Source of the DNA: Runella slithyformis DSM 19594
GTDB taxonomy: Bacteria; Bacteroidota; Bacteroidia; Cytophagales; Spirosomataceae
NCBI RefSeq assembly: GCF_000218895.1
Contig: NC_015703.1
Span: 1,935,001 to 1,999,000, forward strand
Direction of reading: 5' to 3'
DNA length: 64,000 bases
The notes beneath the pieces were generated by a model. It was not told the origin of the DNA and searched no databases. It worked only from the letters and a program-made list of their open reading frames with translations. Below, piece by piece: positions 32,826 to 46,612 of this stretch. The stretch's first letter is position 1. The number at the start of each line of letters is the position of its first letter. The translations under genes and the position numbers were made by a program.

Positions 32826-33755
32826 TTAGGGCTTAGCCCAAAACACATTAGTGAGTTCTTCGTTTTTGAAAACAACCGCGTAGCGTTGCGGCACATCAGC
32901 CCGCAAAACGGCACCGTTCATTTCCTGTAGTTCCTGAAATGAAGTGATCGGTTTTTCCAACGTAAAGCCTGTTGTTCTAAATAACTCTAACCATTGATGC
33001 ACGGCGTATTGTTTTTCTACGCGCACGTCTTCGGTATGGCCTAAGACATCGTCTATCTCGCGACTGAAGAACAGTTTCAACGCCGCCTTTTCTTTGTGTG
33101 TAATATCCAGGCTGTCAATCACTTCAAATACCAGTCCGTAGTGGGTAACGGCATTATGAAAGCGAGTGGCATAGTGCGGTTCAAAATGATCGGAAACGGG
33201 TTCAGACAAAACAAAAGCCTTGGGTGCCAAGTCACGGATGTATCCAAAAACCGCTTCACGCTGCGCCGCCAGTTGGATATGATGTAAGGCAAAAGACGCA
33301 TTGACCACTAAAGCATCGTAATGAGCCGGCAACAATGCCCGCAGTTCAGTCAATGTCATTTTCTCAACAAACCCAATAGATGACGTAACATAGACCTGAA
33401 AAGGAAGCTGTAATTCCGCAAAATTATTTTCTGCCGCTCGAACAGCATCAGCAAAAGGTTCAATGCCCACCACCGTCAGCTGCTTTACCCGACAATCCGA
33501 TGGTTGTGCCAATAAACGAAGTACATTCACGATTTGCATTCCTGTCCCGATGCCGATGTCCACCAGCACGGGATATTCGGCATTTTTTAAACTTTTCACC
33601 AACAACGCATTGGCGCACTGTTGGGTCAGGGCCGCCAATGGCAGTTGCTGTATGAGCAACTCAAAGAGACGAATCTGCGGAATCTCAAACTGTTGGACAT
33701 AGATATGCTCATTCGACTGCCCGCCCGTTATGTGTTTCCGCATGGCTTTGGCCAA
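32826..33755 (-). CDS. Bacterial GRAS-domain protein (SAM-methyltransferase-like fold)
   Basis: The 309-residue protein aligns by eye with the GRAS domain of plant transcription regulators and their bacterial relatives. LHR-like QQCANALLVKSLKN is near 42. The VHIID-like segment is PVLVDIGIGTGMQIVNVL. LVVNASFALHHIQ near 150 matches plant VNS-FELHRLL, EPVSDHFEPHYATRFHNAV near 178 matches the NHN...FLERF-EALHYY segment, and WLELFRTTGFT near 275 is SAW-like. Bacterial GRAS proteins, described as Rossmann-fold methyltransferase-like small-molecule enzymes, have been reported in Bacteroidota. Its start overlaps the DUF5615 stop by 28 nt; a second ATG at 33743 is possible. Confidence 0.8.
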   Translation of the reverse strand: MAKAMRKHITGGQSNEHIYVQQFEIPQIRLFELLIQQLPLAALTQQCANALLVKSLKNAEYPVLVDIGIGTGMQIVNVLRLLAQPSDCRVKQLTVVGIEPFADAVRAAENNFAELQLPFQVYVTSSIGFVEKMTLTELRALLPAHYDALVVNASFALHHIQLAAQREAVFGYIRDLAPKAFVLSEPVSDHFEPHYATRFHNAVTHYGLVFEVIDSLDITHKEKAALKLFFSREIDDVLGHTEDVRVEKQYAVHQWLELFRTTGFTLEKPITSFQELQEMNGAVLRADVPQRYAVVFKNEELTNVFWAKP

Positions 33756-34366: not shown

Positions 34367-36769
34367 TTAATTCCTCGGCGGCTTGCCTCCGGTCAGCAGC
34401 CCCTGCATCCGCTCCATGGTTTTCTTTTCACCCGTCAGCGACAGGAAGGCTTCGCGCTCGAGATCAAGCAAATACTGCTCGGTAACATTTTGTGGGTAGC
34501 TCAAATCCCCGCCGCAGATCACATACGCCAATTTGTCCGCGATTTTGGCGTCATGCTCCGTGATGTAATTAGCCATACGCATACTGCCGATCCCTGCTTT
34601 AAACAACGCGATACCCGTTTTTCCCTGCACTTTGATGTCGGTGCGGTGCTTGGGTTGAGTATAACCGTTTTCGGCCAGATCAATGGCCGCCTGCTTCGCT
34701 TCGGCAATCAGGCGACTGCGGTTCAGCACGATTTGGTCGCGATCAGCTTTGATGTAATTCATTTCTACGGCTTCCTGCGCTGAGGTAGATACTTTGGCTT
34801 GAGCAATATTCATGAATGCCGATTGCAGAATATTTAATTCAGGGTCGCCGGCTTGGTACAGATCCGAACAGCGCAATGCCATCTCTTTGGTGCCACCTCC
34901 GGCGGGAATCAGGCCAACGCCCAATTCCACCAACCCCATGTAGGTTTCGGCATGAGCTACCACTTTATCGGCGTGGAGGTTCAGCTCGCAGCCACCGCCC
35001 AAGGCCAGCGAGTGGGCGGCCGTTACTACCGGAATAGAAGAATACCGCGCCCGCATCATGGTTTGCTGGAATTGCGCAATCATCATATTGATCTCATCGT
35101 ATTCCTGCTCAATGGCAAACATGAACAGCATGGCCAAATTGGCCCCCGCCGAAAAGGCCTCGTTTGAGTCGTTTCCTACCACCAATCCGCGAAAATCTTT
35201 TTCCGCGACAGCGTAGGCACGGTTGAGACCTTCGACTACCTCGGCACCAAAGGTGTTCATTTTGGAATGGAACTCTACGCCCGCGATGCCATCGCCCAAG
35301 TCATAAATAGAAGCTCCGGCATTTTTCCAGATGATATTTTGGGATTTGTTTTCGAGAATGATAAACGCCTCCTGTCCCGGAATGGCTTTGTAGGATTTGG
35401 CGGGAATGTCGTAATACAGCTTTTGGCCGTTTTGTACTTTATAAAAGCTTTCATTCCCTGCCGCCAACATATCATAGACCCACTGCGCCGGCTTGGCATT
35501 CAGTGATTCCATGATCTCGACCATTTTTTGTACACCGATGGCATCCCAAGTTTCAAAGACACCCATTTGCCAGCCAAAACCCGCGCAGATGGCCTGATCG
35601 ATACGATACAATTCATCGGCAATTTCGGGAATACGATTGGACGCATACCGGAAACTGCTCGCAAAAGTACGGCGGTAAAACTCTCCGGCCTTATCTGTTC
35701 CTTTAAGCAGTACACCAAAACGCTTTTTGAGATCGTCGATGGTTTTCGTCTTTTCCAGCGTTTCAAATCGCACCTTCACCGAAGGCTTGTATTCCAACGT
35801 ACTGAGGTCCAAGGCAAGAATGACGGTTTTGCCTTTTTCGTCTTTGGTTTTCTTATAAAAACCCTGTCCCGTTTTATCACCCAACCATTTTTTCTCCATG
35901 AGGCTTGCCATGATGGGGGAAATTTCAAACGCTGCCCGCGACTCGTCGTGCTGCATTTGCACCAAATTATTGGCTACATTGACGGTTGTATCCAATCCCA
36001 CCACATCCGACAGGCGGAACGTTCCGGACTTAGGACGCCCTACTACCGGACCGGTCAATTTATCAACTTCTTCTACCGTCAGGCCCATTTCAGCGGCTAC
36101 GCGCATAGTTTCGACCAGTGCGTGGATACCCAGGCGATTGGCAATAAAGCCGGGTGTATCTTTGCAGAGTACGGTTGTTTTCCCTAAAAACAAATCGCCG
36201 TAATGCAGGAGAAAATCAAGGATTTGAGGATTTGTCTTTGGTCCGGGAATCACTTCAAACAAACGCAGATAGCGCGGTGGGTTGAAAAAGTGTGTTCCGC
36301 AAAAATGCTGCTGAAAATCGTCACTGCGCCCCTCCGACATCAGGTGGATGGGAATCCCGGACGTATTGGACGTAATGAGGGTTCCCGGTTTGCGCAGCGC
36401 ATCGACTTTTTCAAACAGGGAACGTTTAATATCCAACCGCTCCACGATCGCTTCCAGTACCCAATCGTAATTTTTGATTTCGGCCAGGTTATCGTCAAAG
36501 TTCCCGAGTTTGACCCTACTTGCAAATTTAGGGCTGTACAAAGACGCCGGCGTAGCTTTCAACGTATTTTGAAAGGCCTCATTGACGATGCGGTTGCGCA
36601 CGGCGGGATGCTCTAGAGTTAATCCCTTGGCCTGTTCGGCGGCGTTCAGTTCTTTCGGAACAATGTCTAACAACAGTACTTCTACGCCAATATTAGCAAA
36701 GTGGCACGCAATGCGCGACCCCATAATGCCCGAGCCCAATACGGCTACTTTTTTAATGCTGCGGTTCAT
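34367..36769 (-). CDS. 3-hydroxyacyl-CoA dehydrogenase / enoyl-CoA hydratase fusion
   Basis: The 800-residue protein carries the middle two activities of fatty-acid beta-oxidation in FadN-like order: an N-terminal NAD-binding dehydrogenase (VLGSGIMGSRIACHFANIG, dinucleotide fold), its C-terminal helical domain (PGFIANRLG), and a C-terminal crotonase domain (SLALGGGCELNLHAD and LVELGVGLIPAGGGTKEM, with the oxyanion and Glu region). It works on acyl-CoA in the cytoplasm. A thiolase is not beside it. A palindrome (36835-36850) in its promoter region is shared with the acyl-CoA dehydrogenase at 44.7 kb. Confidence 0.92.
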   Translation of the reverse strand: MNRSIKKVAVLGSGIMGSRIACHFANIGVEVLLLDIVPKELNAAEQAKGLTLEHPAVRNRIVNEAFQNTLKATPASLYSPKFASRVKLGNFDDNLAEIKNYDWVLEAIVERLDIKRSLFEKVDALRKPGTLITSNTSGIPIHLMSEGRSDDFQQHFCGTHFFNPPRYLRLFEVIPGPKTNPQILDFLLHYGDLFLGKTTVLCKDTPGFIANRLGIHALVETMRVAAEMGLTVEEVDKLTGPVVGRPKSGTFRLSDVVGLDTTVNVANNLVQMQHDESRAAFEISPIMASLMEKKWLGDKTGQGFYKKTKDEKGKTVILALDLSTLEYKPSVKVRFETLEKTKTIDDLKKRFGVLLKGTDKAGEFYRRTFASSFRYASNRIPEIADELYRIDQAICAGFGWQMGVFETWDAIGVQKMVEIMESLNAKPAQWVYDMLAAGNESFYKVQNGQKLYYDIPAKSYKAIPGQEAFIILENKSQNIIWKNAGASIYDLGDGIAGVEFHSKMNTFGAEVVEGLNRAYAVAEKDFRGLVVGNDSNEAFSAGANLAMLFMFAIEQEYDEINMMIAQFQQTMMRARYSSIPVVTAAHSLALGGGCELNLHADKVVAHAETYMGLVELGVGLIPAGGGTKEMALRCSDLYQAGDPELNILQSAFMNIAQAKVSTSAQEAVEMNYIKADRDQIVLNRSRLIAEAKQAAIDLAENGYTQPKHRTDIKVQGKTGIALFKAGIGSMRMANYITEHDAKIADKLAYVICGGDLSYPQNVTEQYLLDLEREAFLSLTGEKKTMERMQGLLTGGKPPRN

Positions 36770-36818
36770 TTATGTAATTATCAATTAGTAAATGTATAAT
36801 CGGATGAAATTTGCCCTT

Positions 36819-36826
36819 CAAAAGTA
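36819..36826 (-). promoter_or_regulatory. Candidate -7 box of the fatty-acid oxidation gene
   Basis: The minus strand reads TACTTTTG, matching TAnnTTTG, 50 nt before the start. The operator palindrome at 36835-36850 lies directly upstream of it, inside the spacer where RNA polymerase would bind. No good -33 box was found. Confidence 0.4.
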
Positions 36827-36834
36827 AAAAAAAA

Positions 36835-36850
36835 AGTATGCAAGCATACT
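36835..36850. promoter_or_regulatory. Palindromic operator candidate, copy A
   Basis: AGTATGCAAGCATACT is a perfect 7+2+7 palindrome 66 to 81 nt upstream of the beta-oxidation fusion start. The same sequence (complement orientation) occurs at 46561-46576 in the acyl-CoA dehydrogenase promoter. Size and symmetry fit a TetR-type repressor site; the regulator is not in the window. Confidence 0.65.
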
Positions 36851-36984
36851 ATTGTCAAAAAATTGTCTCTCAAAAAAGTCTAAAAAATTACGATTTAGAT
36901 GATAGAGCGTCTGCGGGATACATGAGGCCGTCTAAAGTCTGCGTTCTGAGGCCCAAATTCCATCCAACTATGGAGTTTAAATCG

Positions 36985-36992
36985 TAACTTTG
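36985..36992 (+). promoter_or_regulatory. Candidate -7 box upstream of prfA
   Basis: TAACTTTG matches TAnnTTTG, 60 nt before the prfA ATG. A -33 box at the right spacing was not found. Confidence 0.35.
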
Positions 36993-37052
36993 CGGTTTGA
37001 ATCCGTTAGTACTCATGCATGTTAACGGATAACGATTAACCATTAATGACCA

Positions 37053-38129
37053 ATGTTAGAACAGTTAGAGGCCATAAAAGAGCGTTTTGATGAAATTGCA
37101 CAGCGAATTGTGCAGCCGGAAGCAATGGCTGATCAAAAGCGCTTCTCAAAAATGAGTAAGGAGTACAAAGATCTGGACAAGATTGTTCAGAAATACCAAG
37201 CCTATAAAAAAGTATTAAGCGATATTGACGGAGCAAAGGAGCTGATTGCCACAGAGAGCGACGAAGAAATGCGTGACATGGCAAAAGCGGAACTGATTGA
37301 GCTTCAGCCACAAGCCGAAGAATTGGAAGCTACGCTAAAAGAAATGCTCATTCCGAAAGACCCTAACGACAGCCATAATGTAATCCTGGAAATCAGGGGC
37401 GGCACCGGTGGCGACGAAGCGGCCATTTTTGCCGGAGACCTGTTCCGGATGTACCAGCGTTTCTGCGACCGTATGGGTTGGAAAATGGAGCTCATGGACT
37501 TTACAGAAGGAAGTACGGGCGGGTATAAAGAGATCATTGCGAGCGTCACCGGTGAAGACGTCTACGGAAAGCTTAAATTTGAATCGGGTGTACACCGCGT
37601 ACAGCGGGTTCCCGTGACCGAATCACAGGGCCGTGTACATACCTCGGCGGCCACCGTGGCCGTCATGCCCGAAGTGGAAGACGTCGAGGAAGTAGAAATC
37701 AACCCTGCCGATATTGAGATCATTACTTCGCGTTCGGGAGGGGCCGGCGGTCAGAACGTAAACAAAGTAGAAACCAAAGTACAGTTGACCCACAAACCGA
37801 CGGGGATTGTGGTGGTGTGTCAGGTAGAGCGCAGTCAGCACGGAAACCGTGAGCGCGCCATGAACATGCTGCGCTCAAAACTGTACGAAATGGAATTGAA
37901 GAAACAAAACGACGCGGTATCTTCTCAGCGTAAAAGCCTGGTAGGCAGCGGTGACCGCTCTGACAAGATCAGAACGTACAATTATCCTCAAAGCCGCGTG
38001 ACCGATCACCGCATCGGTTATACGGTCTATAATTTACCTACTGTAATGGATGGTGAGATCGGCGATTTTATTGAGCAACTTCGGATTGCCGAAAACGCCG
38101 AGCGCATGAAAGAAGGCATGCCGGCCTAA
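37053..38129 (+). CDS. prfA: Peptide chain release factor 1
   Basis: The 358-residue factor recognises UAA and UAG stop codons. The stop-recognition tripeptide is PVT (PxT type, [10 protein letters not shown] near 186), which marks RF1 and not RF2 (SPF). The GGQ motif sits in [14 protein letters not shown] near 230-243 and reaches the peptidyl transferase centre, where its Gln is normally methylated by PrmC. The length and both domains are intact. It has its own promoter-like box upstream. Confidence 0.96.
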
Positions 38130-44724: not shown

Positions 44725-46518
44725 TTACAGAACCACCTCTTTTTCGGTGGCAATGGTCAATACTTCATTGTCTTTCAGGCGTACAGCCAAGCCCAGCGTT
44801 TTGGGCACTTCATAGTGGAAGAAGAATTTCATCGTATGAATTTTTCCTTCGTAAAATGCTAATTCTTCCCCGTCCGGATTTTGCGTAACAATGGTGCGCT
44901 GCGCCACAACAGCCTGCTTCAGCCACTGCCATGCTATGGTATTGATACCGAACATTTCCATGTATAAGGTCGCATCCATCAAAAAGCGTTCGATATCGCC
45001 CTGCATGGCAAATGGCATCAATGCCATCGTTACTTCCTGCAAACGGCCCAATTCGGCTTTCAGTTTTTGGGCATAAGGCTTGAGATTTTCGTGGGTTTCG
45101 GCCTCGGCAATGGTTTTGGCCACTTCTCCAAAAAGAAACTGAACAGGTTTGCCGCCTTTCATGGTCATTTTACGACCGAGCAGGTCCTGCGATTGAATTC
45201 CCGTTGTTCCTTCGTAAATCGGCGTGATACGAATATCGCGGTAGAGTTGTTCCAACGGGAAATCTTCCGTAAAACCATAGCCTCCCAGCACCTGTAACCC
45301 ATTGCTTACCGCTACCATTCCCATTTCGGTCGGATAGGTTTTTGCCACCGGCGTCAGCAATTCAAGCATTAAATGGTATTTTTCCTTTTCTTCCGGGTCT
45401 TCACTTGCGTGGGCAATATCGGCACAGCGGGCGGTTTCCATCAAAAGAGAAAGAGAACCTTCCACCACTGCCTTTTGCAGCAGCAACATACGTTTTACAT
45501 CCGGATGTTGGATAATGGGAATCTGGGGGCTGTCTAAGGCTGTTTTTTGGTTCAATCGACGACTTTGCGGACGTTCTTTGGCGTATTGCAGCGAAGCCTC
45601 GTATGCCGCAGACGCAATCGCCGCGCCCGTCATTCCTACACCGATTCGGGCTTCATTCATCATCTGAAACATATAATTGAGGCCTCGGTGCGGCTCACCC
45701 ACCAACCAACCATGACAATCATCGTTGTCGCCCATGGTCAGGTGCATGGCAGGTACGCCCCTTTGTCCCAATTTATGGTAAATTCCCGTAGAAGTTACGT
45801 CGTTATCAGCGCCGTCGAGGCGGTATTTGGGTACCACAAAAAGTGAAATCCCTTTGGTGCCTTTAGGGGCACCGTCAATCCGTGCCAACATCAGGTGAAT
45901 AATATTTTCACACTGATCGTGGTCGCCGGCTGAGATAAAGACCTTTTGACCCTTGATTCGGTAGGAACCATCGGCCTGTGGCGTAGCCGAAGTAGTAATA
46001 TCTGACAAAGAACTGCCGGCCTGCGGTTCGGTCAGGGCCATCGTGCCCTGCCATTTTCCACCCAGCATTTTTTCTACGTAGGTCTGTTTTAATTCTTCCG
46101 AAGCAAACGTAGCGATCAGCCGCGCCGCCCCCGACGTCAGTCCGGTGTACATCATGCCGTTGTTGGCCGCCATTAAGATGAAACCAAGAACGGAATTAAC
46201 GATCTCGGGCAATTGCTGTCCGCCGTCTTCAAATGAAAAGCCCGTGCCGATCAGTCCCGCATCGCCCATTGCTTTAAGGTATTCACCTACTTTAGGGTGT
46301 ACAGTTACTTTGCCGTTTTTCAGTTCGGGCTGATTCCGGTCCAGATCACGAAAATGCGGAAACATGAGGGTATCCCCAATCTGCGTCACGGCATCAATCG
46401 TCATGTCAAACGTTTCGCGGTCGTGAGCGCTGTAATAGGGATAGTGCGTTAACTCGGTAGCATTAAATACTTCGTAAAGAAGAAAATTAAGGTTACGACG
46501 GCTATAGTATTGGGCCAT
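44725..46518 (-). CDS. Acyl-CoA dehydrogenase with C-terminal extension
   Basis: The 597-residue flavoenzyme has the three acyl-CoA dehydrogenase domains (GFSFEDGGQQLPEI, TEPQAGSSLSDITTSA near 164, IYEGTTGIQSQDLLGRK near 425, with the catalytic Glu in YEGT) and an added C-terminal domain to the end. This is the longer class acting on long or branched acyl-CoA. It oxidises the acyl-CoA in the first step of beta-oxidation. Its promoter carries the palindrome shared with the hydratase/dehydrogenase fusion gene, which implies one regulon. Confidence 0.9.
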   Translation of the reverse strand: MAQYYSRRNLNFLLYEVFNATELTHYPYYSAHDRETFDMTIDAVTQIGDTLMFPHFRDLDRNQPELKNGKVTVHPKVGEYLKAMGDAGLIGTGFSFEDGGQQLPEIVNSVLGFILMAANNGMMYTGLTSGAARLIATFASEELKQTYVEKMLGGKWQGTMALTEPQAGSSLSDITTSATPQADGSYRIKGQKVFISAGDHDQCENIIHLMLARIDGAPKGTKGISLFVVPKYRLDGADNDVTSTGIYHKLGQRGVPAMHLTMGDNDDCHGWLVGEPHRGLNYMFQMMNEARIGVGMTGAAIASAAYEASLQYAKERPQSRRLNQKTALDSPQIPIIQHPDVKRMLLLQKAVVEGSLSLLMETARCADIAHASEDPEEKEKYHLMLELLTPVAKTYPTEMGMVAVSNGLQVLGGYGFTEDFPLEQLYRDIRITPIYEGTTGIQSQDLLGRKMTMKGGKPVQFLFGEVAKTIAEAETHENLKPYAQKLKAELGRLQEVTMALMPFAMQGDIERFLMDATLYMEMFGINTIAWQWLKQAVVAQRTIVTQNPDGEELAFYEGKIHTMKFFFHYEVPKTLGLAVRLKDNEVLTIATEKEVVL

Positions 46519-46560: not shown

Positions 46561-46576
46561 AGTATGCTTGCATACT
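46561..46576. promoter_or_regulatory. Palindromic operator candidate, copy B
   Basis: AGTATGCTTGCATACT is the reverse complement of the palindrome at 36835-36850. It lies 43-58 nt before the acyl-CoA dehydrogenase ATG, directly downstream of the -7 box (46583-46590), where a bound repressor would cover the transcription start. Confidence 0.7.
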
Positions 46577-46582
46577 GAATAG

Positions 46583-46612
46583 CAAAGATAAATAAAAACT
46601 TTACATGACAAG
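46583..46612 (-). promoter_or_regulatory. Promoter of the acyl-CoA dehydrogenase gene
   Basis: The minus strand reads TATCTTTG (complement of 46583-46590), a perfect -7 box, preceded after 18 nt by CTTG (46609-46612), close to the -33 TTTG. Transcription would start within or beside the palindromic operator. Confidence 0.55.

Follow-up and report, generated by a model that had tools for sequence, protein, structure and literature searches.

The two copies of a 16-bp inverted repeat in the window, the whole 64-kb stretch of DNA that was analysed, are very probably operators of a MarR-family repressor, P0001, that would control a set of beta-oxidation genes. The sites themselves, their conservation, their target genes, the geometry of the promoters and the link to a MarR gene are all read directly from the DNA.

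The palindrome and the promoters in the window

Both copies (Table 1) are located in gaps that precede minus-strand genes, 9.7 kb apart, one before the gene for a 3-hydroxyacyl-CoA dehydrogenase/enoyl-CoA hydratase fusion protein (HAD/ECH) and the other before an acyl-CoA dehydrogenase gene. A preliminary description of this DNA had placed the first copy 66–81 nt before the HAD/ECH gene and its exact reverse complement before the acyl-CoA dehydrogenase gene, and both placements agree with the coordinates, site 1 being located 66–81 nt 5' of the HAD/ECH ORF start at 36769. Its wording of an 'identical 16-bp palindrome' is correct as to the identity of the copies but not as to their symmetry: the 16-mer consists of two inverted 7-bp arms that flank a 2-bp centre (AA or TT), and hence it is not perfectly palindromic at the centre. 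As also described there, a third copy was not found in the window at up to 2 mismatches. Matches with up to 3 mismatches number 4 in all, two of them with 3 mismatches, compared with an expectation of 1.58, and 4 were reached in 7 of 100 shuffles.

Table 1. Features of the proposed regulon in the window and the MarR-family gene outside it
Feature	Position	Strand	Remarks
Operator 1, AGTATGCAAGCATACT	36835-36850	.	Promoter region of the HAD/ECH (FadN/FadB-like) gene
Operator 2, AGTATGCTTGCATACT	46561-46576	.	Reverse complement of AGTATGCAAGCATACT; acyl-CoA dehydrogenase promoter region
3-Hydroxyacyl-CoA dehydrogenase/enoyl-CoA hydratase fusion	34367-36769	-	800 aa, HAD domain first; Pfam 3HCDH_N, 3HCDH, ECH_1
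Acyl-CoA dehydrogenase	44725-46518	-	597 aa; Pfam Acyl-CoA_dh_N, _M, _1, Acyl-CoA_dh_C
Putative -7 box of the HAD/ECH gene, TACTTTTG (TAnnTTTG)	36819-36826	-	Spacing mode of site-gene pairs
Putative -7 box of the acyl-CoA dehydrogenase gene, TATCTTTG	46583-46590	-	Spacing mode of site-gene pairs
MarR-family gene (P0001)	G000:C4:1144125-1144592		156 aa; about 0.8 Mb from the window

The HAD/ECH protein matches the NCBIfam model Staph_FadB over its full length, with a score of 574.7 of 999 bits, which is under the cut-off. Bacteroidota are known for TAnnTTTG promoters rather than promoters of the sigma-70 type, and a sigma-70 scan of the HAD/ECH promoter gave nothing exceeding shuffles. A passage of PMC9723704 places the TAnnTTTG element at -12 to -5 in Bacteroidota promoters. 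Of 176 site-gene pairs, in which a site between two genes is counted once per gene and related sites are not independent, 103 have such a box no more than 80 bp away, compared with 17 on average and 27 at most for 200 shuffles that preserve base composition only. There are two favoured ranges, with boxes starting either 20–28 bases before the palindrome centre or 16–26 bases after it, and the window promoters provide one example of each. With the putative boxes listed in Table 1, operator 1 would span about -36 to -21 of the HAD/ECH promoter, and operator 2 would span about +3 to +18 of the acyl-CoA dehydrogenase promoter, just past the start site; the two starts are predicted near 36814 and 46578, respectively, on the minus strand. 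On this predicted geometry, both locations, the -33/spacer region and the start site, are repressor positions.

Two further observations concern the surroundings of these genes. Operator 1 is located in the divergent gap (next to 36851-37052) that the HAD/ECH gene has in common with a gene for a peptide chain release factor (37053-38129). Also, a GRAS-domain protein (PF03514, 9e-28; 32826-33755, minus strand), a member of a family best known from plants, is encoded next to a phosphotriesterase-family gene and gave no NCBIfam match.

Further sites in the genome, the family and the genus

A genome-wide search, which the preliminary description had proposed as a check, covered 6.9 Mb in 6 contigs and gave 3 exact copies, 4 copies with one mismatch and 5 with two, and it added sites before further lipid genes. 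The one exact copy outside the window is located before another acyl-CoA dehydrogenase gene; the one-mismatch copies are found one each before a third acyl-CoA dehydrogenase gene, etfB and a fatty-acid hydroxylase gene, with one in a coding region; and one of the two-mismatch copies precedes an enoyl-CoA hydratase gene. For the exact form AGTATGCWWGCATACT the genome has 3 matches, compared with 0 for the reversed control. The loose motif (up to 2 mismatches) is not enriched in this genome (12 matches versus 17 for reversed controls), nor is the core TATGCNNGCATA (10 versus 12). As the loose versions show no excess in number, the case rests on the exact form, its position and its conservation in relatives. 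Several matches were left out as targets, namely those in coding sequences (L006, L008, L012 and L202), one near an ORF start (L009), core matches before other genes (L199 and L206) and the two-mismatch match TGTATGCAAGCATACG at an LptC-like gene (G000:C4:4834792-4834807; L203). The last of these overlaps the ORF start of that gene, possibly by chance.

Exact AGTATGCWWGCATACT is present in 88 of 121 family genomes, whereas the reversed control is present in 0, and a hand sum over the 121 genomes gives about 184 exact sites. Seventy of these roughly 184 sites, taken from the genomes listed, were examined for the genes next to them. A beta-oxidation or electron transfer flavoprotein (ETF) gene starts within 600 bp at 49 of the 70 sites, and a target is found within this distance at 63 of the 70 once MarR and Fe-S oxidoreductase genes are included; the other 7 comprise three sites at DUF4442 genes, two at fatty-acid hydroxylase genes and two unassigned ones. 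The beta-oxidation set had no match among 126 background genes, although this reference set was picked after the sites had been seen and the background genes were drawn from loci that overlap in part. Together, the three types of acyl-CoA dehydrogenase account for 20 of the 70 sites.

The largest single target category is a 4Fe-4S oxidoreductase, found at 11 of the 70 sites (L044, L057, L060, L075 and others), which may serve as the electron acceptor of ETF in these bacteria. DUF4442 genes follow an exact operator at L081, L086 and L089, and these operators would link the uncharacterised domain to fatty-acid breakdown.

The two window sites were also followed through 13 Runella genomes. The HAD/ECH site is found with at most 1 mismatch in all 11 genus orthologs with upstream DNA, the 12th being cut off, and operator 2 is found with at most 2 mismatches in 12 of 12 acyl-CoA dehydrogenase orthologs (80–100% identity). 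Three acyl-CoA dehydrogenase paralogs (55–56% identity) have no site upstream at up to 3 mismatches.

A MarR-family gene linked to the palindrome

The regulator had been placed outside the window, and indeed none of the 14 TetR_N and 17 MarR_2 matches of the genome is located inside it. P0001 is a MarR-family protein: it scores above the Pfam cut-offs for PF01047 (38.3 bits; cut-off 24.6) and PF12802 (27.7; cut-off 27), the PDB sequences that it matches best belong to the MarR family (E 6e-12), and the structure predicted by AlphaFold for a Runella ortholog with 96% identity is a winged helix with 6 helices and 2 strands (pLDDT 89.5, pTM 0.74). P0001 falls under the NCBIfam cut-offs of all 13 models listed, and no match to TetR was seen at E 0.01.

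The gene is tied to the palindrome by its position in relatives. At the motif-selected loci L080, L096, L102 and L106 the palindrome is followed by a MarR-family gene and then by the HAD/ECH gene. Five of the 70 motif-selected sites have the start of a MarR gene at a distance of up to 600 bp, and MarR is, by eye, the only regulator gene that recurs at these 70 sites. Among the best 26 of 69 loci of other families, MarR is directly upstream of HAD/ECH in all 26, and all 26 have a site with at most 3 mismatches within 300 bp before MarR. A third set, the best 80 of 591 named loci, is mostly from Cytophagales as judged by titles. Here a site is found within 200 bp of MarR in 45, 58 and 70 loci at up to 1, 2 and 3 mismatches, respectively, compared with 1.25, 1.9 and 2.75% of control windows (n=4000), a rate that is raised because control windows can overlap the true site; 10 of the 80 have no site near MarR at up to 3 mismatches. 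HAD/ECH is next downstream of MarR in 55 of these loci and was not found there in the other 25. Of the best 30 family loci, 20 are outside the genus, and 19 of these have a site with at most 2 mismatches near the MarR start; since the named loci include species of the family set, the 30-locus and 80-locus tallies are not independent.

Within Runella the arrangement differs. HAD/ECH is next to MarR in 0 of 10 genus loci, and as the two genes are adjacent in other families, they appear to have been separated in Runella. The MarR gene has a site of its own, with 1–3 mismatches, in 6 of the 10 loci, three of these sites being weak with 3 mismatches, and no such site was seen in the other 4, which include the genome studied here. 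In this genome no site at up to 4 mismatches is found within about 1.5 kb of the MarR gene (L033), which is hence not visibly autoregulated.

Across the phylum, relatives of P0001 are present in 73 of 395 genomes. At least two copies of ANTATGCNNGCATANT are found in 56 of the 73 MarR-positive but only 2 of the 322 MarR-negative genomes, and at least one copy in 62 of 73 versus 49 of 322, counts that ignore shared ancestry. The motif is absent from 11 of the 73, and 10 of these 11, which are represented among the 26 other-family loci above, have a variant site before MarR, for example AGTATGCACGCATAAC. Within the family, presence and absence say little, as MarR is found in 120 of the 121 genomes and the exact motif in 88.

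The operator also appears in altered forms. The exact motif is missing from 33 family genomes. Among 20 MarR loci of these genomes, an upstream site with at most 2 mismatches is found in 14, in 3 of which it is present only as the variant AGGATGCTTGCATCCT; a further 2 have a site with 3 mismatches and 4 have none (L287, L288, L305 and L306). Eight of the 20 loci (L289-L296) belong to one small-genome genus, g13, and all eight have the palindrome AGGATGC-tt-GCATCCT upstream of MarR, in three as the sole site and in five together with a near-normal copy; it may represent operator drift or a double operator. Of 136 loci, 101 have the core TATGCNNGCATA no farther than 220 bp from MarR. Residue 63 of the protein is Arg in 87 of these 101, with G at base 2 of 114 half-sites and T at 60 of 174, and Thr in 14, with C at 15, T at 8, A at 4 and G at 1 of 28; all Thr cases come from one family (f7), and the comparison takes no account of shared ancestry. 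This suggests that residue 63 of the predicted recognition helix contacts operator base 2 directly.

The preliminary description had suggested that a single dimeric repressor, for instance of the TetR type, controls a regulon of beta-oxidation genes. The target genes and their conservation argue strongly for the regulon and the single repressor, while the MarR gene behind the palindrome argues against the TetR type. Beta-oxidation regulators of other phyla are often TetR proteins, and at one of the 70 loci (L082) a TetR-like gene, seen by eye, faces the site and an acyl-CoA dehydrogenase gene. However, when all 14 TetR_N loci of this genome were viewed, none had the motif at up to 2 mismatches within about 1.5 kb and four had a 3-mismatch match, whereas MarR is near 5 of the 70 sites and behind the palindrome throughout the best 26 of the 69 other-family loci. 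A TetR regulator was hence rejected, and we consider it very unlikely that a FadR/PsrA-like repressor of this family binds the sites. A similarly slim chance is left to the idea that the motif is bound by a broader regulator of lipid metabolism and electron transfer, with MarR merely among its targets. The DUF4442, fatty-acid hydroxylase and Fe-S oxidoreductase genes among the targets would fit such a regulator, but MarR is the sole regulator gene seen to recur at the sites, MarR and the motif tend to be found in the same genomes across the phylum, and MarR residue 63 varies with operator base 2, albeit in one lineage. That the palindromes arose by chance, or that they are repeats or structural elements to which no regulator binds, has a negligible probability. 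The preliminary description had already called two chance copies very unlikely. The loose motif is no commoner here than its reversed controls, but only about 0.0003 exact matches are expected per 64 kb from base composition, and the exact form exceeds its control both here and in the family, is kept at orthologous genus promoters and is tied to -7 boxes.

Proposed mechanism and comparison with known regulators

From these data we infer binding and repression by P0001 and hypothesize the following mechanism. A P0001 dimer would bind AGTATGCNNGCATACT, covering the -33/spacer region at the HAD/ECH promoter and the transcription start at the acyl-CoA dehydrogenase promoter, and from either position it would exclude RNA polymerase as long as fatty acids are lacking. 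A product of fatty-acid catabolism would then release P0001; by analogy with other beta-oxidation repressors, this inducer is probably an acyl-CoA. Release would jointly induce several acyl-CoA dehydrogenases, HAD/ECH, enoyl-CoA hydratase and ETF, a set to which relatives would add thiolase and the Fe-S oxidoreductase. The general binding mode of MarR proteins is treated in a passage of PMC6401476.

On a wider scale, we think it likely that a MarR repressor inherited with HAD/ECH acts as the master switch for beta-oxidation in the whole order of this genome and in several other families of the class, its operator co-drifting with residue 63 (Arg with G/T at position 2, Thr with C/T/A). The largest of these other families is presumably the Flavobacteriaceae. 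In better-known phyla, this master-switch function is performed by TetR or GntR proteins. A MarR protein for which we found no description, in a major environmental phylum, is thus assigned a likely function together with an operator sequence and a list of targets, and the control of lipid breakdown in Bacteroidota is now directly testable. No title or abstract among the literature matches listed covers this MarR, the motif or the regulon. Fish plasma and mucus are reported to induce beta-oxidation genes strongly in Flavobacterium psychrophilum; no regulator is named in the passage on this induction, and 'MarR' does not appear in the main text (PMC9723704). The induction described in that passage would fit the proposed model if the species has this MarR (PMC9723704).

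Among known regulators, the SlyA/MarR-type factors have in common with P0001 the winged-helix fold and a Pfam MarR match over the cut-off. However, P0001 reaches only 29.5 of 120 bits for SlyA, under the equivalog cut-off, and its targets are beta-oxidation genes. The palindromic operator, with its GCNNGC centre, resembles the SlyA site. FabT of streptococci and lactococci is likewise a MarR protein that controls lipid genes, but it represses fatty-acid synthesis, whereas P0001, which scores 20.5 of 200 bits against FabT and thus falls under the cut-off, is tied to degradation genes. One repressor acting on scattered beta-oxidation genes is also the arrangement of FadR of Escherichia coli (GntR family), FadR of Bacillus and Thermus (TetR family) and PsrA of Pseudomonas (TetR family). 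By analogy, P0001 would be a work-alike of FadR and PsrA, with release by acyl-CoA to be expected, although it belongs to a different protein family.
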